Positions 216-12,198 of a stretch of DNA of 20,615 bases are shown here, one piece after another; position 1 is the stretch's first letter, and each line of letters opens with the position of its first letter. Location of the stretch: positions 1 to 20,615 of IMG/VR virus record IMGVR_UViG_3300042402_003094; one strand, given 5' to 3'. The stretch is from a virus. The translations under genes and the position numbers were made by a program. The notes under the pieces are model-generated. The model had not been told where the DNA came from, did no database searches, and was given only the letters and a program-made list of their open reading frames with translations.

Positions 216-223
216 TATTTATT
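216..223 (-). promoter_or_regulatory. T4-type late promoter (AATAAATA)
   Basis: The minus strand reads AATAAATA, which fits the NATAAATA late-promoter core of T4-like phages recognised by gp55 with gp33 and the sliding clamp. It overlaps the TAA stop codon of the gp5-like gene (TAA at 221-219). The partial ORF starting at 193 follows about 23 bases downstream. The match is exact, but an 8-mer this AT-rich can occur by chance. Confidence 0.55.
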
Positions 224-2687
224 TGGATTTTACAGTTATCTTTCCAACGCAATCAACAACAGAAATAATCTTTGTTCCCGGTGGTGGATCTAGAGTCGGA
301 TCAACTTCTATAACTTTAAATACTGGAATTAATTCAGCATTGAAACCAGTATCACTTTCGACAAATATTGTCGGTCTTGAATCAAAACCAGATGCAGTTT
401 TTTCAACTCTTACTCCAACCACTGCTCCATTTTTTACAATCGGTTTAAGAACAGCACCCCTATCAGGTTCAACTACTATCGTATCATTTTCAGTATAGTT
501 AAATCCAGGATCCTTAACGTAAACTTCATCCAACTGTAAAATAACAGGATATATTGGTAAGTTTAATAATGTTTCTCTCTCGCTTGGCGTAAGTTGTGGT
601 ATACGACTTACTGCATTTTCTCTTTCTATCGGATTAAGATTTGGTAAATTTTCTAATCCTGGAATTTCTAATAAGGTTTCAACATCCCTTGGTGCTGGGG
701 GTGCTGTAATTGTAATTGGTCGATTTACTGGGAATTCTACTCCAGCAGGAATAGTTAAATCATCAATTATTACTGGAGATGGAACTTTAACAAAATCTCC
801 AGGATTTAATTCGATAGTGGTTCCTGGATTTACTGGAGGGAAATAAGTTCCATCTGCACCTTTTTTATAAGATTGATCTCTTTTTTTCCATACTCTACCA
901 GATCCACCTTCAGATCCATCTGGAGATATTAAGTAATTGGCACCAGATTCAACAATAACGATATTTTCAATACTCTTAATTGGTTCTCCCGCACTATTTG
1001 TAGAACTAGTCTTACTCATAATAGGAACAGCTGCCGCACCACCACCAGTTCCACAAGAATCGTTAATAGAAACAATTGGATCTGCCGTAAATCCACCTCC
1101 CCCATTAAGGAGATCGACAGCAAGAACTTCACCAGTTGCTCCAACCACAACATTTCCTGAAGCACCACTACCACCAGAACCAAAAATACTCAATGTAGGA
1201 GCACCACACCCAATAGGACCAATGCCACAACCACTTGCAAGAGATGTGAGTGCATCTCCTGCGCCACCAACTAAACCACCAATATCAAGATTATTTGCAT
1301 TAAATGCTCCAGCAGCATCAGATGCTGCTTGTGCTGCGGATTGTCCAATTGCTTGTGCTTGATTAAAAACAGACTCAATACTAACTGGACCGCCACGATT
1401 ATCTCCAGGACCACTCCAAGTGCTCCACTGATCTAATGTTGGGCAAGATAATTCCTCTTCACAACTAAAAAGACCAAAAATCTTTTTAATAATCGAAAGA
1501 ATTTGTCCAGCTAAATTTGCAGCTGCCCCAACTGTTTGTAATATTGCATTGATTGGTTGCAGAATAGAATTTATTAATCCAGAAATAAATCCGGCAACTC
1601 TCCCTACAATTTCACCAGCAACACCTTCAGCCAAACATACTGGAGCATTGATTGCTTTATTAACTAAGTTTTTTAATTGATTTCCAACTAATGCTAATAA
1701 TCCTTGAATGATTTTATTAATAGCACAAGAAAGAAGGTCTAGGGTTTTATTTTGTGCTTCTTTTACTGCGGGTCTTAAATTTGGAAAGAAAAGGAAATAT
1801 GTATCTTTTACGATATTGTTAACTTTTTCTATAACCGATTTTCTAACTGCTTCTACAATATTTTTAATTTTTGAAGTTACAAATGTAATCGCATCAGTAA
1901 CGGCATTTTCAATTCTTTTTTGTAGTTTATCAATACGACCAGTTAGTTGTGTACTAAAATCTGCACCGAGTTTTGTTAAGTTTTCGACAGTCTTAATCAA
2001 TTTTTCAATATCAGTGGAGATTCCCTTTATGTCATTTCTACCACATCTGGTAGTTTTTGACATCGGATACTGCATATCGCCATCCATTTTGGCCTGAGTA
2101 TCTGCTATTGATCCCAGACCTGATGTTAAACCTTGAGGATTTTCACTAACACCAGTGAATTGATTTCTTGTTTGCCCTGGTTGTTTTACTTGAACTGCTG
2201 AGGTTTTCTCATTAGTATTTTTAATGGTTGTTACTGATACTTTCTGGTTTTTAGTATATCCACTAAAAGGAAGAAATCCAACTTCTGGAATTTTCTTTTC
2301 AAGAGCAGTTTGTTGATTATATCCCAATACGCCCATAATAACTGGTTGCTGAGCATCTTCACCATCAATAAAGAATCCGAACACAAAACTTCCTTGACGA
2401 AGTTGTGCTGATGTTGATGCTCCAGCAGATCCAGCTCCTGCAGTCACTGGATACATTACAGTTGCCCAAGGTAATTCATCATCGCTCAAATCTTTAAGAT
2501 TGGCGGTGTGATACCCCATTATTCTGACTTTATATCTTTCACCGAATCCTGGAATTTCTCCAGTATTATCAACTCTATATCCAAGAATATTATCTTGCCA
2601 CTTAGTTTGGTCTACTACTTGACCAATCCACCAAACAAAACCATCTCTTCCTACAAAGTGTTTTTGGAATAACTGTTCTTCAATCAT
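219..2687 (-). CDS. 5: gp5-like baseplate hub / tail spike protein without a lysozyme domain
   Basis: The first ~120 residues look like the T4 gp5 N-terminal OB-fold that joins the gp27 hub: FVGRDGFVWWIGQVVD, then IPGFGERYKVRIMGYH, then a segment ending in a GxFVFGFFIDGEDAQQPVIMGVLG strand pattern. The rest differs from T4 gp5. There is no recognisable T4-lysozyme domain and no octad triple-beta-helix repeat. Instead residues ~220-410 are long amphipathic or hydrophobic helices. After a Gly/Ser-rich linker, the C-terminal ~300 residues are beta-rich, with GxxYTxxPxVxI-type repeats and a Pro-rich stretch. At 822 residues it exceeds T4 gp5 (575). It overlaps the preceding CP12-like gene by 8 bases, suggesting translational coupling. 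The name rests on the OB-fold and on neighbouring gp27; a cell-wall-cutting role is not supported by what I see. Confidence 0.8.
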   Translation of the reverse strand: MIEEQLFQKHFVGRDGFVWWIGQVVDQTKWQDNILGYRVDNTGEIPGFGERYKVRIMGYHTANLKDLSDDELPWATVMYPVTAGAGSAGASTSAQLRQGSFVFGFFIDGEDAQQPVIMGVLGYNQQTALEKKIPEVGFLPFSGYTKNQKVSVTTIKNTNEKTSAVQVKQPGQTRNQFTGVSENPQGLTSGLGSIADTQAKMDGDMQYPMSKTTRCGRNDIKGISTDIEKLIKTVENLTKLGADFSTQLTGRIDKLQKRIENAVTDAITFVTSKIKNIVEAVRKSVIEKVNNIVKDTYFLFFPNLRPAVKEAQNKTLDLLSCAINKIIQGLLALVGNQLKNLVNKAINAPVCLAEGVAGEIVGRVAGFISGLINSILQPINAILQTVGAAANLAGQILSIIKKIFGLFSCEEELSCPTLDQWSTWSGPGDNRGGPVSIESVFNQAQAIGQSAAQAASDAAGAFNANNLDIGGLVGGAGDALTSLASGCGIGPIGCGAPTLSIFGSGGSGASGNVVVGATGEVLAVDLLNGGGGFTADPIVSINDSCGTGGGAAAVPIMSKTSSTNSAGEPIKSIENIVIVESGANYLISPDGSEGGSGRVWKKRDQSYKKGADGTYFPPVNPGTTIELNPGDFVKVPSPVIIDDLTIPAGVEFPVNRPITITAPPAPRDVETLLEIPGLENLPNLNPIERENAVSRIPQLTPSERETLLNLPIYPVILQLDEVYVKDPGFNYTENDTIVVEPDRGAVLKPIVKNGAVVGVRVEKTASGFDSRPTIFVESDTGFNAELIPVFKVIEVDPTLDPPPGTKIISVVDCVGKITVKSK

Positions 2688-2892
2688 CGTAGATTCTACA
2701 CTCTAATGCGTTCGGGTTGTCATTACAATAAAGTTCAAGGGGGGATGGATCATGATTATCATCTGGATGAGATGCTTGATATCTCTCCAATGATTCTAGT
2801 TCTTCTTCAGCATGTCTTCTTGATTGCGAAGATGCCATTGGATCTTCAATTATTCTCTTATCATGATCAATGTGCTTTTGGATGTTTTCCAT
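2680..2892 (-). CDS. cp12: CP12-like protein (Calvin cycle inhibitor family)
   Basis: This 70-residue acidic protein ends in SPLELYCNDNPNALECRIYDD. That is very close to the C-terminal glyceraldehyde-3-phosphate dehydrogenase-binding tail of CP12 (two cysteines with eight residues between them, then an ECRxYD(D/N) end). CP12 clamps GAPDH and phosphoribulokinase and turns off the Calvin cycle in cyanobacteria; cyanophages carry cp12 as an auxiliary metabolic gene. The N-terminal cysteine pair is absent, and the core AWDxVEELQ motif is replaced by a helical EEELESLERYQASH segment. If functional it may bind GAPDH through the C-terminal loop without full redox control. The gene is wedged in a virion operon: its ATG abuts the stop of the gp27-like gene, and its end overlaps the gp5 start. 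An unrelated small structural protein with a convergent tail is possible but less likely. Confidence 0.75.
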   Translation of the reverse strand: MENIQKHIDHDKRIIEDPMASSQSRRHAEEELESLERYQASHPDDNHDPSPLELYCNDNPNALECRIYDD

Positions 2893-4182
2893 TTAACTTA
2901 CCTTACCTGAAAATGAATCTCTTACGAGAGTAAGACTTGTAAAAGTGTCTTTTGGAGTAATTCTATGACATAAACTAGCAATCATATACTTTCCTTTAGT
3001 TTGCATATTTGGTTTTTTATTTTCAATTTTTGCAAGATCTGGGAAATCACACTCAATCATATCCCCCGCATGAAGACTGAAATCTCCTGGAATCATAATA
3101 TGAGTCTTAATGCTATATAGCTGATTATATCTCATAATTGATTGAACCATCGTTGTTGGTGCATCAAAATTAGGATCTGTTGGTTTTGCTTTCCAATTTT
3201 TTAACTGCTCTTTTGCATCTTTTCCGGATGGTAGTGTTCCTAAATCTAATACATGATTCATAAATCGTGTTGGAATTTGCCTAAATTCCTTATCGACGAA
3301 CAGAATATTATCAGCAGCAAGTTCAATTTTTGATTTTTGATCTTTTTCTAGTGAATAATTTCTCACTTGATAATCCATTGCATAAAAATCAAAGAAAATA
3401 CTACGATTATTATACATTCCCAATGACATATTTTGTTGTAAATCTATATTTCTATCAATTTTAACATTGATAATTTTTCCATCATATCCTTCTGGTGTTT
3501 TTGTGGAATTTGTATAGATATATTTTTTCTTTGGTTCTTGTTTTAAAAGAACATCAATTGATTTAAACTTAAATGCTTCACTTGTTTCATACATGAAGTA
3601 ACCAGCTGCTCCGCCGATTCCTTTTTCCGGAACTGCCTTTGATGCTAACCAAGTGCAGACATATAATGGTTTTCTATCATTTCCTATAAAATTATAATTA
3701 ACACCCGTCTTATCAATATCTAATTTCTTTTTAACTTGCAATCCTTTTGGATCGGTAAGTATTTTCCTAACTGATGCTGAAATATCTCTTTCAAATCTAG
3801 TAACAACTCTCGATTGTTCATTAGCAATAAATTCTTTAGTGCAAAAGTCTAACATATAAACATCATTTGAAGTTCCTGGTGATGAACTATTAACGCGATT
3901 GACATATAATTCTAAACTAAGTGTATTTGGTTTAGATTGATTATCCTCGATAACCAATTCTACAAACTCACCACCACGAATTGGAAGACCATCCAACAAT
4001 CCTATCATTTCCTTCTGGTTTGGTTCTAAACCACCAGATTCAGCAATAATAGCAGTCGCTGAAATTGTATTTGAAAGCACATTTTCATAATATTTAATCT
4101 CAGGTGAAACCTGACTAATATCTTTTGACTTAACTTCAAACTTTTTTATATTGCCCGATAAGGCGGCTTCATTACTTGCCAT
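2893..4182 (-). CDS. 27: gp27-like baseplate hub protein
   Basis: This 429-residue protein has the pattern of a tail hub subunit (T4 gp27 / late control D fold). The N-terminal beta-domain contains GLLDGLPIRGGEFVELVIED, followed by a YVNRVNSSSP...YMLDFCTKEF segment. There is a central domain, and a C-terminal beta-domain with IPGDFSLHAGDMIECDFPDL, a GD-type turn typical of hub proteins. T4 gp27 has 391 residues, so the size fits. Its position next to the gp5-like gene matches the gp27-gp5 hub complex, where gp27 forms the torus gripping the gp5 OB-fold. The start ATG overlaps the stop of the 1252-residue gene (TAATG). The CP12-like ATG directly follows its stop. Assignment rests on fold-like patterns and context, not on strong residue identity. 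Confidence 0.7.
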   Translation of the reverse strand: MASNEAALSGNIKKFEVKSKDISQVSPEIKYYENVLSNTISATAIIAESGGLEPNQKEMIGLLDGLPIRGGEFVELVIEDNQSKPNTLSLELYVNRVNSSSPGTSNDVYMLDFCTKEFIANEQSRVVTRFERDISASVRKILTDPKGLQVKKKLDIDKTGVNYNFIGNDRKPLYVCTWLASKAVPEKGIGGAAGYFMYETSEAFKFKSIDVLLKQEPKKKYIYTNSTKTPEGYDGKIINVKIDRNIDLQQNMSLGMYNNRSIFFDFYAMDYQVRNYSLEKDQKSKIELAADNILFVDKEFRQIPTRFMNHVLDLGTLPSGKDAKEQLKNWKAKPTDPNFDAPTTMVQSIMRYNQLYSIKTHIMIPGDFSLHAGDMIECDFPDLAKIENKKPNMQTKGKYMIASLCHRITPKDTFTSLTLVRDSFSGKVS

Positions 4183-7100
4183 TAGATTTTGTACATTGAA
4201 GATGAGATTAATTGTCTGGAGACCATTCCATAACTATTTACCATACCATCAACAAAAGATGGTGTATATCCACTACCATTCTTTCTTATTGGTTGCATGG
4301 ATTGTCCACCAGGACTTTGGATAAGCATAATCATTCCATTTGATTTATCGTAAGATGCTGTTTGACTTAAGTTGGGTATTGACGATTTAATTGCAGGATC
4401 CCCAAGAACTTTGTAATTCAATGCAAAATCAGATATTTGTGCTGCTGGTGGAGCACTTGGTGCTCCAGGAGCACCTGGAGCAGATCCAGAACCTGGCGCT
4501 GATAAATCTGTTCCAGATGGTGCTAAACCAGCACCTTTAAATTCAAAGTGTCCTCCGTGGCTTCCTGGATAATCATTAGCAACCCAACCATAATTTCTAC
4601 CATTCTTTCTAATCCAAGAATTAGAACCACCATGAATATCCATTGCAATTCCAGACATATGGAGTGATCCACTCGCTCCCCCAACTGCTCTATTTTTTTC
4701 TGGACTTCTCTTACTGCTTGAAACATCTGATGCTTTAACTTTTCCACCAGAATCTTTCATCATTTTATAGAAAGCTTCAGCAGCACCCTTACTAAAGACT
4801 ACAGGTCTTCCTTGCTCATCTTTGGCACCTTGAATGGTATATCCAGGTCCAGTATCCCAAATACCTTTTGTGGAAATAATTCCACTTCCACCACCTCTAC
4901 CACCTTTAGCTGCTGCAGGATCCCCAAGAACTTTATAGTTTGCTGCGAAATCTGATATTTGAACTCCTTCAGATGGTGCAGATGGGGCCCCTGGAGATCC
5001 CGAAGATCCTGGACCTGCAATTGATGGATCTGGTTGTATAGATCCACCGAAAGGAGATTCCTTATTATATTTTGATAAAGGATTGAATCTAGAAAGAACT
5101 GCTGATTTTGGCATTCCATTATCTCTTGGATTCGTTGCTGCTTCCCAATGCAGGTGAGGTCCACTAGAAAGTCCAGTGCTCCCCAGTGGACCCAAAATAG
5201 TTCCTTTCTTAATTTTTTGACCACGCTTAACATACGCGGGTTTATCCATGTGCGCATAAAAATGCCCAATTCCCGTATTATCAATCCAATTGACCCAATT
5301 ACCATAATTACCTTGATTTCCAGTTGCTTCAACAACACCATCGGTAAATGCTTGTAGTGGTTCTCCTCTTGTTCCCGAAATATCAACACCCATATGCATT
5401 CCAGGAGACAATGCAAAATTTCGCATTCCCATATCTGATGTGACTTGATGATTTCCACCCATTGCTAAGAATGGAACTTTGTGGCGTTTTATTCCATTTC
5501 CACCACCTTTACCACCATTTTTACTAGGATTTGATGCAATATCTGGAGGAACATTTCCACCGGATTTAACTTTAGCAAGGGCTGTTTTAATTTTTTCTGG
5601 GGTCATAGAACTTCTTTGACCTGGATAATAAAACTTCCCTTGAGCGTTTGGTAATGATGCAAATTCCTGCGACAACCCCTGCATAAACCGATCATCACTC
5701 ATTTCACCTTTCAACCATCTTCTACCACCTCTGTTACCTTCTATATTAACCTTAGTAATAATTAGATCTTGGTTTTTTGGACTAAAAAGATCTTTATCAG
5801 GATTTAACCCAGCCGCTTTTGCTCTACTAATCAGATATTGTGGTAATTGTTGATATTTTCCAACAGCACCAGTTGCTCTTCTGGCAACTTCGGCAATCGT
5901 CATTTTAGTAGCACCTTTTAATGTAGTGCTAGGATACATTGCTTCATAATTTCCACCAGATTCTTTGCCGGCGATCAAATCAAGAAGTGGCCCCCATTGA
6001 CCTTCAGATATACCACTGCTAGGTGCAGAAGTGCCATCATCAGCACCACCTGGAGGTCCACCGCCAGGTTGCGCTTCTTCTTTCTTTTCCTGTAATAATT
6101 TAAATTGATTTTCTTGAGATTTTACATCAACAAATATTTTTTTCTTTGCCCAATCTGTTAAATTCTTACTAAATTGTCCGATTATTCTTTTATTAAATCC
6201 TGGAACGCTAAATTCATCATTTTTCAAAGCAATACCAATTGAGGAACCAATAGATTCTGCAATTGCATCTGTTCTTGGTTTAGATACTTTTTCGCCTAAA
6301 CTAATATCCAAACCAAGTTTCATTGCCTCACCGATGAATGGTATAGCACCATAAGTTGAAGAAAGATTTGCAAATCTCTTTGCACTCTCTTCATCTTTTA
6401 AAATGGTTCCTTTTGCTTTTTTCAGTGTTTGTGGAGATATTGCAGATGAACCAGTTGTTTTTCTTTGAATACTTGTAGATCTTGATAAAGTTCTTTTTGA
6501 TCCTCCACCTCTTATATTAATTTGACCACCATATGCTCTTCTCTCAATAGGATTTTCCTTATCGGCTTCAGCGACTCTTCCTGTTAAATTTTCATATATT
6601 TTTTTACCAGCCCATTCTCCAATTCCAGCACCAACAAATCCACCAACAGCAGCACCTACAACTGGAATTGGAATCAATCCCTGTCCTATAGCGCCACCAA
6701 TACCAGCACCTAGAGTTGCTCCTATTGCTCCAACTATGGCACGATCTAGTTTCTCACCTAAAGCAAGATCAATACCAATTCCAATCAGAGCACCAACAAC
6801 AGGAACTCTCTTAAAGATTTTAGAAAATGATTTAAATCTTTTAACTATTCTAGCAGTAGAATTTAATGCACTACCTGCTGCACCTGCTGCTTTACCTGCT
6901 AGTCTAGCAGCACCCTTAGCAGCACCTTTTACCCCTTGCTCTAATGCTTCACCACCTACTCTTTGGACTAAAGATTTTAGGGGACCTTTAACCAGATTAA
7001 AGATTACTCCACCCGCTTTTTTGAATAGATTTCCTGCGATTCTTCCTGCTTTTAATAATAACTTACCAATCAGTTTGGCAGGAGGACCAATAATTTTTGA

Positions 7101-7940
7101 AGTTAATTTTGCAATAAACTTAACTTGTTTCGGAAATACCGTCGTTAATGTAATAATTCCAAGTTTTAATGCATTCCAAGTGTTAGTAAGTCCTTTTCCA
7201 ATGTCTTTAAACATCTGAAGAATCATTGGACCATTCTTCAGAAGAATATTAAGCAGACTTCCTATTAGAACATTTAATAGGAATCTTTTGATCATATCAA
7301 AAAGACCAACCTTCGGAGCAGTTATTCCTAACTTTTTCTTCTTCTTAGTATCTTTCTTTTCTTCTAGATTTTTTTCTTGTTCTTCTGCTTTCTTCTTTCT
7401 ACCTTCTATAAAGTTAAGGCGACTTTCCTCTTTTTGGTTGAGGAGTTTTTGTGTTGATATCTGTTTAACTTTTATAAAATCAACTTTTATTTGCTCAAGT
7501 TCTTGTAAAATTTCTCCGAGAACACCATCAGATTTAACTAATGCTCCACTTGGTTTCTTATCTTCAGTCTTAACCAAAGCACCCGATGAACTTTTAACTA
7601 TTGCTGAAGATCTTCTTAAAACTAATGCTCCCCCCTTTCCACCACCTTTTTTATTTTGTGGTATAAATTTTTTTGTTGTTATTTTTTTATCCTTATTTTT
7701 ATTTCCAATTAACCCAAATGCAGCAGACCTTACTACAGATGTTGCAAGACCTCTAACAGCTGCACCACCAACACCTCTTAATGCTCCACCAATACCACCT
7801 CTAACAGCCGCACCACCAACACCTCTAGCAACAGTTCCTCTTACTAATGCACCTCCTCCACCCCTAACAGCAGCACCAGCTGCGCCTCTAGCAGCTACTC
7901 CCGCAGCTGCTCTTAAAACTAAAGGAGCTAGAAATAACAT
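4182..7940 (-). CDS. Large virion protein with three cell-wall hydrolase domains; tape-measure candidate
   Basis: Order along 1252 residues: a Gly/Arg-rich repeat tract (~15-75); a charged Lys/Glu coiled region (~140-205); a hydrophobic FLLNVLIGSLLNILLKN segment shared with the 833-residue neighbour; several glycine-zipper hydrophobic stretches (~235-460), as in tape measure proteins; a lambda R / GH104-like lysozyme-fold domain (~645-780, with GKESGG, GKYQQLP, SPKNQDL and FASLPNAQGKF); an M23 LytM-type zinc endopeptidase (~828-935, HMGVD, GHFYAH, HLHWE); then an M15-like D,D-peptidase domain (~1020-1135, SLHMSGIAMDI and HGGHFEF). Key residues of all three look intact. The motif ISDFA(A/L)NYKVLGDP flanks the M15-like domain at both ends. 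The gene lies between the 833-residue gene and gp27, where T4 has genes 28-29. It probably acts in the tail lumen or hub, cutting peptidoglycan at DNA injection (inference). Confidence 0.8.
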   Translation of the reverse strand: MLFLAPLVLRAAAGVAARGAAGAAVRGGGGALVRGTVARGVGGAAVRGGIGGALRGVGGAAVRGLATSVVRSAAFGLIGNKNKDKKITTKKFIPQNKKGGGKGGALVLRRSSAIVKSSSGALVKTEDKKPSGALVKSDGVLGEILQELEQIKVDFIKVKQISTQKLLNQKEESRLNFIEGRKKKAEEQEKNLEEKKDTKKKKKLGITAPKVGLFDMIKRFLLNVLIGSLLNILLKNGPMILQMFKDIGKGLTNTWNALKLGIITLTTVFPKQVKFIAKLTSKIIGPPAKLIGKLLLKAGRIAGNLFKKAGGVIFNLVKGPLKSLVQRVGGEALEQGVKGAAKGAARLAGKAAGAAGSALNSTARIVKRFKSFSKIFKRVPVVGALIGIGIDLALGEKLDRAIVGAIGATLGAGIGGAIGQGLIPIPVVGAAVGGFVGAGIGEWAGKKIYENLTGRVAEADKENPIERRAYGGQINIRGGGSKRTLSRSTSIQRKTTGSSAISPQTLKKAKGTILKDEESAKRFANLSSTYGAIPFIGEAMKLGLDISLGEKVSKPRTDAIAESIGSSIGIALKNDEFSVPGFNKRIIGQFSKNLTDWAKKKIFVDVKSQENQFKLLQEKKEEAQPGGGPPGGADDGTSAPSSGISEGQWGPLLDLIAGKESGGNYEAMYPSTTLKGATKMTIAEVARRATGAVGKYQQLPQYLISRAKAAGLNPDKDLFSPKNQDLIITKVNIEGNRGGRRWLKGEMSDDRFMQGLSQEFASLPNAQGKFYYPGQRSSMTPEKIKTALAKVKSGGNVPPDIASNPSKNGGKGGGNGIKRHKVPFLAMGGNHQVTSDMGMRNFALSPGMHMGVDISGTRGEPLQAFTDGVVEATGNQGNYGNWVNWIDNTGIGHFYAHMDKPAYVKRGQKIKKGTILGPLGSTGLSSGPHLHWEAATNPRDNGMPKSAVLSRFNPLSKYNKESPFGGSIQPDPSIAGPGSSGSPGAPSAPSEGVQISDFAANYKVLGDPAAAKGGRGGGSGIISTKGIWDTGPGYTIQGAKDEQGRPVVFSKGAAEAFYKMMKDSGGKVKASDVSSSKRSPEKNRAVGGASGSLHMSGIAMDIHGGSNSWIRKNGRNYGWVANDYPGSHGGHFEFKGAGLAPSGTDLSAPGSGSAPGAPGAPSAPPAAQISDFALNYKVLGDPAIKSSIPNLSQTASYDKSNGMIMLIQSPGGQSMQPIRKNGSGYTPSFVDGMVNSYGMVSRQLISSSMYKI
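4395..4436 (-). repeat. ISDFAxNYKVLGDP motif, copy 3 (C-terminal)
   Basis: Codons here encode ISDFALNYKVLGDP near residue 1170 of the 1252-residue protein. It is one of three near-identical copies in the two large adjacent virion genes. It follows a Gly/Ala/Pro/Ser-rich linker and precedes the C-terminal ~70 residues. Nucleotide sequence differs from the other copies mainly at silent positions. Confidence 0.9.
4917..4958 (-). repeat. ISDFAxNYKVLGDP motif, copy 2
   Basis: Codons encode ISDFAANYKVLGDP near residue 1000 of the 1252-residue protein, between the M23 and M15-like domains. It is preceded by a flexible Pro/Ser/Gly linker. The 14 residues are identical to the copy in the 833-residue protein. 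Confidence 0.9.
7750..7826 (-). repeat. Two 29-bp direct repeats, 48 bp apart
   Basis: The stretches at 7750-7778 and 7798-7826 differ at one base (t/c). They encode the doubled RGVGGAAVRG unit in the Gly/Arg/Ala-rich N-terminus of the 1252-residue protein. Further diverged copies extend on both sides. This looks like internal tandem duplication in a low-complexity coding tract. Confidence 0.8.
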
Positions 7941-7943
7941 TTC

Positions 7944-10445
7944 TTATAAACCTCCCCACATATTATAGATTGAAGCAACAACTGCCAAGGTTGCTTCATC
8001 TTCTCGGAATGAACTAAACACTGTCTGGTTATTACTTCCACCATTTGAAGAACCTGTCATCATAGGTGTTTGATTTTTTGCCGGCAATGGTAACGCTGCT
8101 ATTGTTGGTTTGTTTGATGGTGGTTGTGGTATGTTTTGCTTTGGTTTATCTGGGGGCATAACCATTGCGGGAGATGTGCCAACTGCCATCACTTTTTCAG
8201 CAACAAATTTATCTTTTGCTGCTCCAGATAATCCTAATTTATCTGCTTCCAATCTTGCTGCATTAGCAGATTTAAATTGCTCGGAATTTAAAGATTTATC
8301 TGGTCTCTGTCCAGGTGCTAATGCTCCAGGAGGATTCCCTGTCCCCGACTTATTATCAAGAATAGATTTTGCTAAATTTCCAGATTCTTTTTTTGATTCA
8401 TCTTTTTTAGATCCTGGAGGAACATATCCTGCTCTGGCAGGATCTCCAAGAACTTTATAATTTGCTGCAAAGTCTGATATTCCTACTGATGATGATGGTG
8501 CTGCTGATGAAGAACTTGAGTAAGATGAAGATCCTCCCGGAACATCAACCTGTTTTAGAGCAACATCTAATCCTTCTTTAGATCCTGGTAACTGAGAAGC
8601 ACCTTTTCTTGCAATAGCAAAATCTGCTGCTGCTCTTCTTGCATATTCTCTCGCTTTTTCAGGAGGAGCACCTTGTTTCATCCACTTCTCGTAAGTGGTA
8701 TTATATGCTTGCTTATATGCCCAATAGATATCTGCTTGAGGATCTACATTTACTTTTATAGGACCTACAAGTTTTCCAATGTTTCCACCAGACTCACTCT
8801 TAAAATGTTGAGATAGTGCAACAGAATTAATAACCATTTTGCCTTCTTGGCTACTTGGTTTAACCCCTGTTAATTGATCTCTAGCACCAAGTAGCATAGA
8901 TAATCCACCCAATCCAGCACCTTGAACTACTTTATTAATTTGTTTAACTGTGAAGTTTCCTGATCCTTCTTTCTTGTATGCGACAGTATATCTTTTTGCA
9001 GCAGCACCAGAACCAACATTTATTGATGTTTGATTTGATCCTTTAATGTATAGGTCGGGGTCAAATCCTATAGTTCCACCTTCATTTGCGGCTTGAATCT
9101 TTACATCTCCAAGAGAAGCAACATTTCTTTTGGATGATCCTCCAAACATTTTATTGATGCTATCTAAGTATGCAGGACCGCCCAACCAGTCTGCAGCACC
9201 ACCTTTTAATACATATTCACCATCTGATAATGCAGTTAGACGCTTATCTTGGCCAAGACCCTCAACATCATAAGCGGCTGTTTGCGAATTTACAATACCA
9301 CCTTCAGATGAAACTTTATCATTAAATGACAACTTCTTAGATTCGGAAGATTTTATAGGAGTGATTGGTCCTCCACCAAATTTTAATTGAATTGGTGGTC
9401 CTGATGGTGCTTGTTGTTGCTTTTTCTCACCAGTAATATCAGGACTTTGTATTTGTGGAGGTTCTGGTATATTTGGTGCTTGTGGTGCTGCCAGTTGAGG
9501 AGATCCTGGGAGCATTTTTAATGCACCATTTAGAATATCAATAAACCCTTTCAGTGCAGAGTTAATCATATCAATAAAACTTCTGACTGGTTGAACAACC
9601 ATAAAATCAATAAATTTTATGACATTATTAAAGAATCCTACAATACCATCAACCAATCCTTGAATTGGTTTTAATAGCATCATTGGGTTTTTTATAACCT
9701 TCAACAACCACATAACAATAGATCCTAACAGCACATTCAATAAGAAATTTCTAATCGTATCAAAAATGCTAGTGAAAGGTTTTGTTATTTTCTCAAGTAT
9801 TCCAGATCCTTTATCTTTGTCTTGTTTTTCTAGATCTTTTTCTTCCTGTTTCGCCTTTGTTTTTTCACCTTCTTTTCTCCTATTTTCGGTATTCTTTTTA
9901 TCAAGTCCAAGTTGCTTATTCAGAATACCAACCAAATCTTTAACAACAGATCCAATACCCTTAAGTGAATCAAGTAAATTTTTAAAGAAATCTGACAGAT
10001 CTTCCTTATCCTTTTGCTCCTCAGGTTCTGGAATTTCTGTTTTTACCTTTTTAAATGGTTGTATCGCACCACCAGATCCTGGCAAAAGTCTAGATGGATC
10101 TTTAATAGGTTTTGCTTTTGAGGTCTTTGATTTATTAATTACCTTCTCTGCTTTTACTGCTTTTGATTTTAACTTGAACTTTCCTTTATTTCTTTTTACT
10201 CTCTTGAATTCATCTATTAATACTGCTTGATTTTGAGATGTCTTTTTATCAGCAGGTTTCTGAGCTGCTTTCATATCAAGCTCAGTTAATTTTTCTTTGA
10301 TTAGAGTTTTATATTCTCCATATTCAAAGTCAAAGACATCCTCCAGACCCAAGAGTTTTAAAATTCTTGGGTCAATATCCTCCTCGACTAACTCCTCATC
10401 ATTAGCAGTTTGTTCGTATTGAGATTTGGAGGTGTCTGTTTCCAT
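7944..10445 (-). CDS. Large virion structural protein, paralogous in part to the 1252-residue protein; tape-measure or hub candidate
   Basis: The 833-residue product starts with an acidic helical region, followed by a Lys-rich tract (~70-120) and a charged coiled region (~140-215). Next comes IFDTIRNFLLNVLLGSIVMW with adjoining hydrophobic helices (~225-300), resembling the matching part of the 1252-residue protein. A Pro/Gln-rich linker follows, then a domain with LTALSDGEYVLKGGAADWLG (~405-440), a pattern common in phage tail proteins. Beyond a Ser-rich linker lies ISDFAANYKVLGDP (~656-669). No hydrolase motif was seen. The gene directly follows the gp26/53-residue frameshift pair, the position a tape measure gene takes in many tailed phages, and T4 has 27-28-29 here. 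The start ATG lies one base after the upstream stop. Function is inferred from position and composition only. Confidence 0.65.
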   Translation of the reverse strand: METDTSKSQYEQTANDEELVEEDIDPRILKLLGLEDVFDFEYGEYKTLIKEKLTELDMKAAQKPADKKTSQNQAVLIDEFKRVKRNKGKFKLKSKAVKAEKVINKSKTSKAKPIKDPSRLLPGSGGAIQPFKKVKTEIPEPEEQKDKEDLSDFFKNLLDSLKGIGSVVKDLVGILNKQLGLDKKNTENRRKEGEKTKAKQEEKDLEKQDKDKGSGILEKITKPFTSIFDTIRNFLLNVLLGSIVMWLLKVIKNPMMLLKPIQGLVDGIVGFFNNVIKFIDFMVVQPVRSFIDMINSALKGFIDILNGALKMLPGSPQLAAPQAPNIPEPPQIQSPDITGEKKQQQAPSGPPIQLKFGGGPITPIKSSESKKLSFNDKVSSEGGIVNSQTAAYDVEGLGQDKRLTALSDGEYVLKGGAADWLGGPAYLDSINKMFGGSSKRNVASLGDVKIQAANEGGTIGFDPDLYIKGSNQTSINVGSGAAAKRYTVAYKKEGSGNFTVKQINKVVQGAGLGGLSMLLGARDQLTGVKPSSQEGKMVINSVALSQHFKSESGGNIGKLVGPIKVNVDPQADIYWAYKQAYNTTYEKWMKQGAPPEKAREYARRAAADFAIARKGASQLPGSKEGLDVALKQVDVPGGSSSYSSSSSAAPSSSVGISDFAANYKVLGDPARAGYVPPGSKKDESKKESGNLAKSILDNKSGTGNPPGALAPGQRPDKSLNSEQFKSANAARLEADKLGLSGAAKDKFVAEKVMAVGTSPAMVMPPDKPKQNIPQPPSNKPTIAALPLPAKNQTPMMTGSSNGGSNNQTVFSSFREDEATLAVVASIYNMWGGL
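8439..8480 (-). repeat. ISDFAxNYKVLGDP motif, copy 1
   Basis: Codons encode ISDFAANYKVLGDP near residue 660 of the 833-residue protein, directly after a Ser-rich linker. The 14 residues are identical to those at 4917-4958 in the neighbouring gene. Confidence 0.9.
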
Positions 10446-10446
10446 T

Positions 10447-10608
10447 CTACTGCTGTGCTTGTTTTGCCCTTTCTTCTTCTAGATGCTGTTGAAGTAGAGT
10501 CACATAAATGTCCCTTTCCCAAGGAAGCATATTTTCAATCTCTGTTAATGAATATTTATGATACTGCATCAAGGCAAAATTAAGCTTATAGTAGTTCTCA
10601 AGGTCCAT
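10447..10608 (-). CDS. Small tail-assembly ORF after gp26 (gp51 / lambda T-like position), likely made as a -1 frameshift fusion
   Basis: The ORF runs from ATG at 10608 to TAG at 10447-10449 and encodes 53 residues, helical and charged, with YHKYSLTEIENMLPWERDIY. That pattern resembles the second part of tail assembly chaperones, in which a small Leu/Trp-rich peptide follows the main chaperone ORF. Its frame is open upstream of the ATG through CGG ATA GGA CTG GTC CAT back to a T TTT TTC heptamer at the end of gp26. A -1 slip there would give a ~297-residue gp26 fusion adding RIGLVH plus these 53 residues. Independent initiation at the ATG is possible, but no good ribosome binding site is visible and the ATG lies within a perfect palindrome. 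In T4 gene 51 follows gene 26, but T4 gp51 has 249 residues, so homology is not claimed. Confidence 0.75.
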   Translation of the reverse strand: MDLENYYKLNFALMQYHKYSLTEIENMLPWERDIYVTLLQQHLEEERAKQAQQ

Positions 10609-10615
10609 ATGGACC
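10602..10615 (-). other. Perfect 14-bp palindrome over the small ORF start; possible frameshift-stimulating stem
   Basis: GGTCCATATGGACC is its own reverse complement. In RNA it can form a 5-bp GC-rich stem with an AUAU loop, starting 10 bases after the slippery heptamer on the minus strand. The ATG of the 53-residue ORF is in the palindrome. It may stimulate slippage or hide the start codon; the stem is short, so its effect is uncertain. Confidence 0.5.
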
Positions 10616-10619
10616 AGTC

Positions 10620-11339
10620 CTATCCGAAAAAACTGGATAATCCTTCAAGAACTACGGTGCTTTCAACTTCAGTCTTTGGATTTGTCAGTTTAACTTCGTG
10701 AGAAAGTTTTGGCATTGTTTCAAAGAACTTTTCAATTTGTTTGAACTGCTGAGAATTCATCTGATCCAAGAACTCACTAAGTTCTTTCTTTGTCACATCA
10801 GCAGTATCCCAAACTTCTTCTTCATTATAAATTTTATCAATACAAGATGCAATCAAATCAAAAGATTGATCCATACTATTGTTTGAACTAAAGTCAAAGT
10901 TTGATTTAATAAACTGATCCAATGAAGGATACTTCATTTCCATCATTAAATTGTTATCAATTTTAATCTTTGTTGTGTGCTCTTCATTCTTCTTGACTTT
11001 AATATCATCAATTAAAATCTTAACTTCAACGGGAGTTTCTCCATCATCAGGTGCAATCAAATTAACTTCAATTTCTTCCCCAACAGATTTTCCGCGAATG
11101 TTAAGGAACAAATATTCAATATCAAAGGTTGGTAAATTTTCAACCTTGATACTTTTAGATTGAATGCAATTCTTAATTACAGTCTTAATAGCAGTTGTAA
11201 TTTGCTTCATATCCTCACTTTCCAAAGCAAGAACAAGAAGTTTTTCTTCTCTAACTAAAAACGGTCTATATTTGATCGTTTCTCCAGTTGATGGCAATTC
11301 CAACTCATATGTTGGTGTAGAAATCTTTGGTAAAGGCAT
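10620..11339 (-). CDS. 26: gp26-like baseplate hub / tail assembly protein
   Basis: The 239-residue product matches the pattern of the T4 baseplate hub gp26 family: a start like KISTPTYELELPSTGETIKY, then YRPFLVREEKLLVLALES, LPTFDIEYLFLNIRGKSVGE and a helical C-terminal half. T4 gp26 has 208 residues and is needed for hub assembly. The last codons are AGT TTT TTC GGA TAG, carrying a T TTT TTC slippery heptamer immediately before the stop. The protein may therefore be made in two forms, gp26 and a frameshifted extension, like the lambda G/GT chaperones. A CATAAATA late promoter lies 27 bases upstream of its ATG, just after the gp54 stop. The tape-measure-like genes follow. Confidence 0.8.
   Translation of the reverse strand: MPLPKISTPTYELELPSTGETIKYRPFLVREEKLLVLALESEDMKQITTAIKTVIKNCIQSKSIKVENLPTFDIEYLFLNIRGKSVGEEIEVNLIAPDDGETPVEVKILIDDIKVKKNEEHTTKIKIDNNLMMEMKYPSLDQFIKSNFDFSSNNSMDQSFDLIASCIDKIYNEEEVWDTADVTKKELSEFLDQMNSQQFKQIEKFFETMPKLSHEVKLTNPKTEVESTVVLEGLSSFFG
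10626..10632 (-). promoter_or_regulatory. Candidate -1 ribosomal frameshift slippery heptamer (T TTT TTC)
   Basis: On the minus strand gp26 is read AGT TTT TTC GGA TAG, so the heptamer is correctly phased as X XXY YYZ. A one-base backward slip avoids TAG and enters the frame of the 53-residue ORF with no stop in between. It is followed 10 bases later by a GGTCC/GGACC stem. Frameshifting at this place in tail genes is well known (lambda G/GT and many other tailed phages). Confidence 0.7.
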
Positions 11340-11366
11340 AATGTCCTATAGAAATTTCAGTATGAT

Positions 11367-11374
11367 TATTTATG
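11367..11374 (-). promoter_or_regulatory. T4-type late promoter (CATAAATA) for gp26
   Basis: The minus strand reads CATAAATA in the 37-base gap between the gp54 stop and the gp26 ATG. The start codon is 27 bases downstream of the box, as expected for a late leader. It would drive gp26 and the large tail genes. Confidence 0.6.
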
Positions 11375-11376
11375 GG

Positions 11377-12198
11377 TTAAAATGCAGGTCCAGATCTTCC
11401 TAAGAGATTGCCAACAGATCCACCAGCATTGCCGAATGGATTTACTGTTAAATTCTGTCCAGTCTGCCCAAGTTCTCCGTCACTATCAATTGCAACATTA
11501 TTAAATAGTGCATTAGAAGCAGCTTGGGATCTTGGATCTCCTGGAACATCTGGTGCTGGTCCAAATTCTGTCGTTCTTACATATCTTAAATATGTGAATG
11601 AGACAGTCGCTTTGAGAAGATCACTCCCCTCATATGAGACTGGAATGGAAACCAAATTTGTTGGAAATGCTCCAATGAATTGATATTTTAATGTTTTATT
11701 TGAACCACCTCTTGTTCCATAGTCCTTTTCAAATTTAGTGAGGAAAATATTGCATCTATAATCCTTTGGCCAATTCATTCTATAAAATGCAGTAAGATCT
11801 TTATACTGATCATTGGATAAAAAGCTTCCTTCACCAACAACATAATTCATCCAAGAATTTAAATAATCAATAACTTTATAATTATGATCTACGTAGAATG
11901 TTAAATCAATACTATCATCATAAATTCTGCGATATGCCATCTTTTCAGTCACACCATGATAATCATTAGTCACTTCGTGAGTTGCTAAACTTGATCCTGG
12001 TAAAGATGCTTCACAGCAAGAGATATTAATAATTTCACCATCAACTGCTTGATTTATTCCACGCTGAGCAATAAATGATTTTAAATTGGCATTAGTGCCA
12101 GTAAAAATGTCCACCATATAAACAGAAGTTTGTGCTGGTCTAAGCAACTTCTGTTTCAACTCAGACATTCTAAATTGCTTTGGGCCTGGTGTTGCCAT
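11377..12198 (-). CDS. 54: gp54 baseplate tail tube initiator
   Basis: The 273-residue product has the tail-tube-like fold pattern shared by T4 gp19 and gp54: ISCCEASLPGSSLATHEVT, MAYRRIYDDSIDLTFYVDHN, a WMNYVVGEGS segment and a KYQFIGAFPTNLVSIPVSYE strand leading to TVSFTYLRYVRT. gp54 sits on the baseplate and starts polymerisation of the gp19 tube. T4 gp54 has 320 residues. Its start lies back to back with the rightward gp4 operon; the rightward late promoter starts two bases beyond its ATG. A second tail tube paralogue is the main alternative, but the neighbourhood of gp26, gp48 and gp53 favours gp54. No clear ribosome binding site precedes the ATG. Confidence 0.8.
   Translation of the reverse strand: MATPGPKQFRMSELKQKLLRPAQTSVYMVDIFTGTNANLKSFIAQRGINQAVDGEIINISCCEASLPGSSLATHEVTNDYHGVTEKMAYRRIYDDSIDLTFYVDHNYKVIDYLNSWMNYVVGEGSFLSNDQYKDLTAFYRMNWPKDYRCNIFLTKFEKDYGTRGGSNKTLKYQFIGAFPTNLVSIPVSYEGSDLLKATVSFTYLRYVRTTEFGPAPDVPGDPRSQAASNALFNNVAIDSDGELGQTGQNLTVNPFGNAGGSVGNLLGRSGPAF

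Follow-up and report, generated by a model that had tools for sequence, protein, structure and literature searches.

Gene cluster and layout of gene B

The window analysed here is a whole virus record of 20.6 kb, which is probably a genome fragment. As judged by Pfam and PHROG profile matches, it contains the baseplate cluster of a T4-like cyanomyovirus. The gene set and order are those of the T4-like cyanophages (Kyanoviridae), and much the same cluster is found in the relatives. The order runs from a gp59-type loader through gp32, gp53, the tail tube cap, the DNA end protector, gp4, the tube and gp26 to gp51, two long genes referred to here as A and B, the hub, CP12 and gp5. Genes for phoH and thymidylate synthase also lie on the far side, together with the gp4-, gp53-, gp32- and helicase-loader-type genes. 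The genes surrounding A and B are as follows.

219-2687, minus strand: gp5-like hub/spike protein with a Gp5_OB domain (Pfam, PHROG)
2680-2892, minus strand: P0005, CP12-like carbon-metabolism regulator, between hub and gp5
2893-4182, minus strand: P0002, hub-like tail protein (PHROG, phrog_350 "tail protein")
4182-7940, minus strand: gene B, P0001, 1252 residues, GH104 + M23 + M15
7944-10445, minus strand: gene A, P0004, 833 residues
8436-8480, minus strand: linker motif, the single copy in gene A
10447-10608, minus strand: gp51-type baseplate hub assembly catalyst, 53 residues (phrog_634)
10620-11339, minus strand: gp26-type baseplate protein (Pfam, PF12322)
11377-12198, minus strand: tail tube protein (Pfam, PHROG)

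The term "gp27-like" for P0002 is a label derived from position, and a PDB search with this protein found nothing. Pfam gives no lysozyme domain on the gp5-like protein. P0005 shows 61% identity to CP12 from Synechococcus phage S-CREM1; a CP12 gene inside the baseplate cluster is seen in other cyanophages as well. Given the CP12 gene and the relatives, a cyanobacterial host is very likely for the phage. In a PADLOC scan of the window, the matches fell on coiled or membrane stretches.

Two long genes separate gp26/gp51 from the hub-like gene in the cyanophages examined. There are two exceptions: S-RIM2 has four open reading frames between gp51 and the hub-like gene, and S-CRM01 (L213, 6407-9001) has a single gene of 864 residues in place of the pair. 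Phage records from Rhizobium, Agrobacterium and Vibrio display other gene orders with no A/B pair upstream of the hub-like gene, and a 742-residue gene near gp51 in a Methylophilales phage has no Pfam match and one weak PHROG match.

The two members of the pair look like paralogues at the level of sequence. An alignment of P0001 with P0004 extends over 216 residues, a partly charged stretch, with an E-value of 5e-11, and gene A is thus related to gene B in its N-terminal part. In S-PM2, both A and B match phrog_5453 over most of its length. The A protein of the same phage (L218, 2060-5563) also bears a tail lysozyme, and its residues 66-218 match an ADP-ribosyltransferase family (PF01129, 25.1 bits versus a cut-off of 22.3), possibly an injected enzyme that acts on the host. 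On gene A of the window, no hydrolase was recognised by Pfam, PHROG or ten hydrolase profiles, a set that types outside these ten could escape.

The features of gene B are listed next. The region considered in the preliminary description, positions 4520-6010 on the minus strand, corresponds to residues ~644-1140 of the 1252-residue open reading frame.

6051-7940, minus strand: non-catalytic scaffold, residues 1-630, partly common to gene A and the relatives L020-L024
7239-7295, minus strand: hydrophobic helix-like segment, residues 216-234, with a similar stretch in gene A (FLLNVL.GS)
6618-6740, minus strand: glycine-zipper-like hydrophobic segment, residues 401-441; phrog_12490 matches residues 345-457
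5529-6023, minus strand: GH104/lambda-lysozyme-type domain, residues 640-804 (profile and model)
5961-5963, minus strand: candidate catalytic residue E660 (alignment to lambda lysozyme)
5130-5399, minus strand: M23 metallopeptidase domain, residues 848-937 (Pfam, PF01551)
4914-4958, minus strand: linker motif, copy 1, residues 995-1009 (ISDFAANYKVLGDPA)
4518-4862, minus strand: M15/VanY-type metallopeptidase domain, residues 1027-1141 (PF08291, profile and model)
4392-4436, minus strand: linker motif, copy 2, residues 1169-1183 (ISDFALNYKVLGDPA)
4185-4241, minus strand: C-terminal tail, residues 1234-1252, with similar counterparts in most hub-recruited relatives, independent of the hydrolases they carry

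The scaffold contains charged, hydrophobic and glycine-zipper stretches. Two glycine-rich "GxDxxLGEK" stretches in it look alike by eye, one at 6618-6740 and the other at approximately residues 530-575; the first is strongly hydrophobic and is the one matched by phrog_12490. B contains two copies of a 15-residue linker motif, ISDFA.NYKVLGDPA, which flank the M15 domain, and A contains one. Variants of it are kept at the same places in close relatives, and the short linker V.GDPA is found on both sides of the third domain position in B. Among 50,697 phage records, the best listed match covers 13% of P0001, and no place covers 80% of it.

Three hydrolase domains on one protein

Of the three domains, the M23 peptidase is beyond doubt as judged from sequence. 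The PF01551 match has an E-value of 7.5e-23 and a score of 81 bits, well above the cut-off of 28.7. Both zinc motifs, HxxxD and HxH, are present (H849, D853, H929 and H931), along with H897, and all five residues are invariant in the five sequences aligned, namely the window and four relatives.

The M15/VanY-type domain scores 28.9 bits against PF08291 (E-value of 1.4e-6; cut-off of 23.2). A profile of 43 sequences, for which 42 loci were used out of 80 kept from 122, leads to 1LBU with an E-value of 8.4e-5. As can be seen from the alignment, R1078, H1094, D1101 and H1131 are invariant in all 43 sequences; H1094, D1101 and H1131 we take to be the zinc ligands of the M15 His-Asp-His site. The AlphaFold2 model has a pLDDT of 89.8. 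In a VIA comparison it matches VanXYg (4F78) with a Z-score of 10.0 and 1LBU with a Z-score of 9.0, and VanY falls within Z-scores of 9-10. The best Foldseek match is VanY-like with an E-value of 3.9e-3, and none reaches 0.001. Taken together, the model and the sequence conservation confirm a predicted M15/VanY-type fold with a His-Asp-His site.

The GH104 domain was the weak point, because Pfam gives no GH104 match in B and a single-sequence PDB search with the segment returned no related protein, the only match being an unrelated helicase with an E-value of 0.75. The question was settled by an alignment of 49 sequences, the profile of which leads to lambda lysozyme (1AM7) with an E-value of 2.1e-9. 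In this profile, E660 aligns with the glutamate of the "WSEGT" stretch of lambda lysozyme, presumably the catalytic residue of that enzyme, and its column is at least 90% conserved among the 49 sequences.

The AlphaFold2 model of the domain has a pLDDT of 91.2. With Foldseek, only the baseplate chain of Anabaena myophage A-1(L), 8kea_A, is found at an E-value of 0.001 or better (3.1e-4), and lambda lysozyme is absent from the best 50 of 69 rows. In a VIA comparison, residues 88-259 of 8kea_A match the model with a Z-score of 13.9, and these residues fall inside the region named lysozyme in the published account of that baseplate (PMC10966104). Lambda lysozyme itself follows with Z-scores of 11.1 (3D3D) and 10.3 for 131 aligned residues at 3.4 Å, and the next rows, which are lytic transglycosylases, do not exceed 6.4. 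Model and alignment thus confirm a predicted lambda-lysozyme fold with a candidate catalytic glutamate for residues 640-804.

The preliminary description had proposed, from motifs, that three wall-hydrolase domains with key residues intact reside on this one protein, and the profiles, the two models and the conserved sites bear this out. The M23 and M15 domains score above the Pfam cut-offs, the GH104 domain is recognised by its 49-sequence profile, and the two domains that were modelled, GH104 and M15, match the expected folds. No segment was found to lack its fold or its metal or catalytic site, as judged for GH104 and M15 by the models and for M23 by the profile and the sites. Chance motif matches are ruled out; profiles, models and conservation agree far beyond chance.

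Not all relatives of M23 are enzymes; NlpD, for example, acts as an activator. One domain of B, or more than one, might likewise be a wall-binding or regulatory relic. For gp15 of A-1(L), the passages of the paper that concern its domains report activity for two, and the lysozyme is not one of them (PMC10966104). With the NlpD and ActS models, the scores stay far under the cut-offs. Against such a relic stands the conservation, across the relatives, of the metal-site residues of M23 and M15 and of the glutamate of GH104, and we regard a relic as unlikely.

Distribution and exchange of domains among relatives

How common such B proteins are was addressed with a sample recruited by the hub-like gene P0002 rather than by hydrolases. 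From 55 loci, L045 was removed for want of a B gene and the window was added, which again gave 55; merging at 95% identity left 42, and omission of L056, which is cut at its 5' end, left 41 distinct complete B proteins. Ten hydrolase profiles, built by iteration on the same loci, were counted on each. No domain was recognised on 13 of these proteins, one on 13, two on nine, three on five and four on one. (A larger count of 184 proteins should not be read as a frequency, since its loci were fetched in part through the hydrolase domains themselves.) The six proteins with three or four domains are those of the window, its close relatives L016, L018 and L019, and L020 and L022. Since they are close kin or, in the case of L020 and L022, share the scaffold of P0001 at 52-54%, the six are a single lineage.

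The B protein of L020 (3307-7989) is 1561 residues long and gives four matches: Hydrolase_2, Amidase_2, M23 and M23. Outside the sample, L106 encodes a 1516-residue protein with GH104, VanY and M23; its pair lies at 3790-8337 and 8344-12087, and the 1248-residue neighbour has a phage lysozyme. Note that the Hydrolase_2 matches of L020 and L022, the Amidase_2 of L022 and the M23 of L106 are below the Pfam cut-offs. The view that three domains in one hub-type protein are something new is not supported, given the 6 of 41 B proteins with three or four, all of one lineage, and the three domains of A-1(L) gp15; "three unprecedented" is ruled out by gp15, L020, L022 and L106.

With A and B considered together, a glycan-cutter and a peptidase occur together in each of the 23 complete pairs on which two or more domains were recognised, a count in which we take Hydrolase_2 to be a glycan-cutter. 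In all 13 pairs with a complete A whose B bears at least two domains, A is without any. S-CREM2, with one recognised domain on A and two on B (GH104 and lysozyme), breaks this rule; S-B68 has two on A and one on B. An NlpC/P60 domain on the B protein of S-CREM1 is a record annotation only, for which Pfam finds nothing. The thick peptidoglycan of cyanobacteria had been suggested as the cause of the triple arrangement. Within the cyanophages compared, this is not supported: 11 complete pairs out of 38 carry no recognised domain at all, and in Prochlorococcus phage P-SSM2 none was recognised on either A or B. It follows from the same 11 pairs that wall-cutting by the pair either is not universal or is not always recognised.

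The presence of three domains in one contig might in principle have arisen by faulty assembly, the window being a whole record and probably a genome fragment. The three domains recur in the same order in separate contigs, namely L012 and the near-identical pair L009 and L010, and L011 carries GH104, M23 and M23. Because the fusion recurs in these separate contigs, an assembly artefact is refuted and its probability is negligible.

Comparison of these loci reveals how single domains come and go. In 60-base steps, the DNA of P0001 agrees with that of L012 at 97-100% over residues 481-620 and at 93-100% over residues 821-1140, versus 35-70% over residues 621-820, the GH104 slot. The converse is observed with L009 and L011: within the slot (residues 641-780) the steps are at 83-98% and 93-98%, respectively, and over the 100 residues before and the 180 after it they are at 67-88%. 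In L011, the third slot holds another M23 instead, with 32-53% over residues 1041-1140. GH104 domains 80-87% identical to that of the window are present in other phages, for example L076-L083, in proteins that match P0001 only over that segment (E-value cut-off of 1e-5; best 45 of 162 rows). Single domains are swapped between near-identical genes, and the scaffold and the C-terminal tail stay.

The tails are conserved with or without hydrolases. Variants of NSYY..QL.GFLYK form the C-terminus of most hub-recruited B proteins, and variants of SIYN.VG that of most A proteins; exceptions include L066, L068 and L069, and among the isolates examined such tails are clear only in S-B05. These observations are consistent with an A/B pair that functions as a slot system, in which domains would be exchanged singly by recombination on a conserved tail-tip scaffold and a glycan-cutter would be paired with a peptidase whenever there are at least two. 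We consider the odds of this proposal to be even. The window would then have three slots filled and L020 four, and the phage could change the bonds it attacks without changing its tail. Among the full-text literature matches listed, none was seen to present the A/B pair as a slot system for hydrolases, which is no proof of absence. The modularity is less expected than the number of domains, and the main interest of the locus lies in a recombining set of entry enzymes.

Probable virion location, proposed role and comparison with known systems

Synechococcus phage S-SCSM1 has the gene order of the window, that is tail tube, gp26, gp51, A, B, hub, CP12 and gp5/spike. An M15 domain is present on its B protein, which resembles P0001 in the N-terminal scaffold, at residues 86-248 (E-value of 2e-6), and again in the M15 part, at residues 1053-1155 (E-value of 1.6e-5). 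According to its published proteome, the A and B counterparts, ORF213 and ORF214, were detected in virions by mass spectrometry; the authors there doubted a structural role for the two enzymes and considered carry-over after CsCl purification possible. In S-CREM2, mass spectrometry yielded 73 and 71 unique virion peptides for the counterparts ORF208 and ORF209, respectively (PMC10665884). Similarity of the latter B to P0001 is weak, the best E-value being 0.001, inside the GH104 part. With both neighbours detected in the virions of two phages, carry-over becomes less likely. The virion proteome of S-CREM1 comprises 14 proteins, and neither A nor B is named in the passages on it. Virion location for the B protein of the window is thus drawn from homologues in two phages.

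GH104, M23 and M15 domains also occur in true endolysins. Homologues of B are named "endolysin" in several records, and among the window proteins scanned with Pfam and PHROG, in what is a fragment, no other endolysin gene was recognised. These points would suit a late lysis enzyme that frees the progeny from inside. Such an enzyme would not be expected inside the baseplate hub cluster, at a length of 1252 residues with a long non-catalytic scaffold, with a C-terminal tail kept whether or not enzymes are present, or with homologues of A and B in virions, as reported in the two proteomes. Indeed, on account of those virion homologues, and of a gp5 with no recognisable lysozyme, an entry enzyme is the likelier assignment, and the late endolysin was rejected as the main reading; we hold it to be very improbable.

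The preliminary description had called B a hub- or tape-measure-like virion protein. The virion part has gained from its place in the baseplate cluster and from the positional homologues in two virion proteomes; the tape-measure part, to which an arm of the hub would be the alternative, is plausible, and we place it somewhat short of even odds. According to it, B, A or both would be the tape measure, with hydrolases at the distal end as in TM4 or T5. The hydrophobic and glycine-zipper stretches of B would fit such a protein, and residues 218-308 of gene A weakly match a PHROG tape-measure family (E-value of 0.0026); on P0001, no PHROG tape-measure match falls on the scaffold, only on the M23 part. 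The longest tail, that of S-CREM2 (418 nm), goes with the longest pair (1565 and 1456 residues), and the pairs measure 936/735 residues in S-H34 (129 nm), 933/722 in S-N03 (138 nm) and 1016/991 in S-CREM1 (165 nm). Just five tail lengths are involved, however; S-CRM01, with a tail of 140-170 nm, has its single 864-residue gene, and B is also larger where it carries more hydrolase domains. The tape measure of A-1(L) is docked on the spike through a short helix at its C-terminus (PMC10966104). By analogy, the conserved tails of A and B could be a parallel to this helix.

From what was established directly in the sequences, namely the domains and their sites, the two predicted folds, the gene order and the domain swapping, and from the presence of A and B in virions, taken from the published proteomes of relatives, our main reading is that B is a structural component at the tip of the contractile tail and that its wall-cutting domains are delivered on contraction. 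We assign this a probability of about 0.82. B would be made as the second of the related A/B pair encoded between the gp26/gp51 and hub/gp5 genes. Its scaffold and C-terminal tail would fix it at the tail tip, with the row of wall-cutting domains between them joined by flexible linkers. We infer from this arrangement the docking by the C-terminal tail, the delivery to the periplasm and the bonds cut: upon tail contraction, the linked domains would reach the periplasm, where GH104 would break glycan strands and M23 and M15 would break cross-links or stem peptides. The combined cuts would open a local hole for the tube. In a host wall of the A1-gamma type, the "cross-bridge" named in the preliminary description would presumably be a direct D-Ala-mDAP cross-link. 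In such a scheme, the job of the tail lysozyme of T4 gp5 would be done here by A and B.

Cyanomyoviruses are among the commonly isolated marine phages. To our knowledge, the manner in which they breach the wall of picocyanobacteria has been little studied. Recognition of the A/B pair would correct an annotation that, in many records seen, reads "endolysin" or "hypothetical protein", and domain swaps in near-identical genes offer a way to ask whether entry enzymes follow the wall chemistry of the host.

T4 gp5 is a tail-tip lysozyme used at entry. It bears the lysozyme itself, whereas the gp5 of the window has an OB domain without a lysozyme match and the enzymes are located on B. Nearer to hand are the A/B pairs of the Kyanoviridae, such as ORF213/214 of S-SCSM1, ORF208/209 of S-CREM2 and those of S-SM1 and S-PM2, which share the position and the kinds of hydrolases. 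The isolates examined have from zero to two recognised domains per protein, whereas in the window B has three and A has none. The combination of GH104, M23 and M15 on this protein in T4-like phages was not encountered among the full-text literature matches listed.

Hydrolase domains are likewise a feature of tape-measure or tail proteins of TM4 and T5, as described in PMC6116005, and enterococcal tail lysins bearing two or more lysin domains are reported in PMC10194240; B shares such domains with them and has three. The former source states that endopeptidases in virions are nearly confined to phages of Gram-positive hosts, a statement with which the cyanophages described here are at odds.

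The closest likeness is to the hub protein gp15 of A-1(L), a baseplate hub protein that bears lysozyme, endoglucanase and peptidase domains, the latter two shown to act on host cells (PMC10966104; PDB 8kea). In both cases three domains are carried by one cyanophage protein, and thus three in one hub-type protein were already known in kind. The lysozyme region of gp15 is, moreover, the best structural match of the GH104 model. The two proteins differ in their domain sets, the window having M23 and M15, and probably in their architecture. In A-1(L), as described there, the domains are borne by the hub subunit with its barrel, whereas in the window Pfam and PHROG give no hub match on P0001, and the hub-like protein is encoded by the separate gene that follows, P0002.
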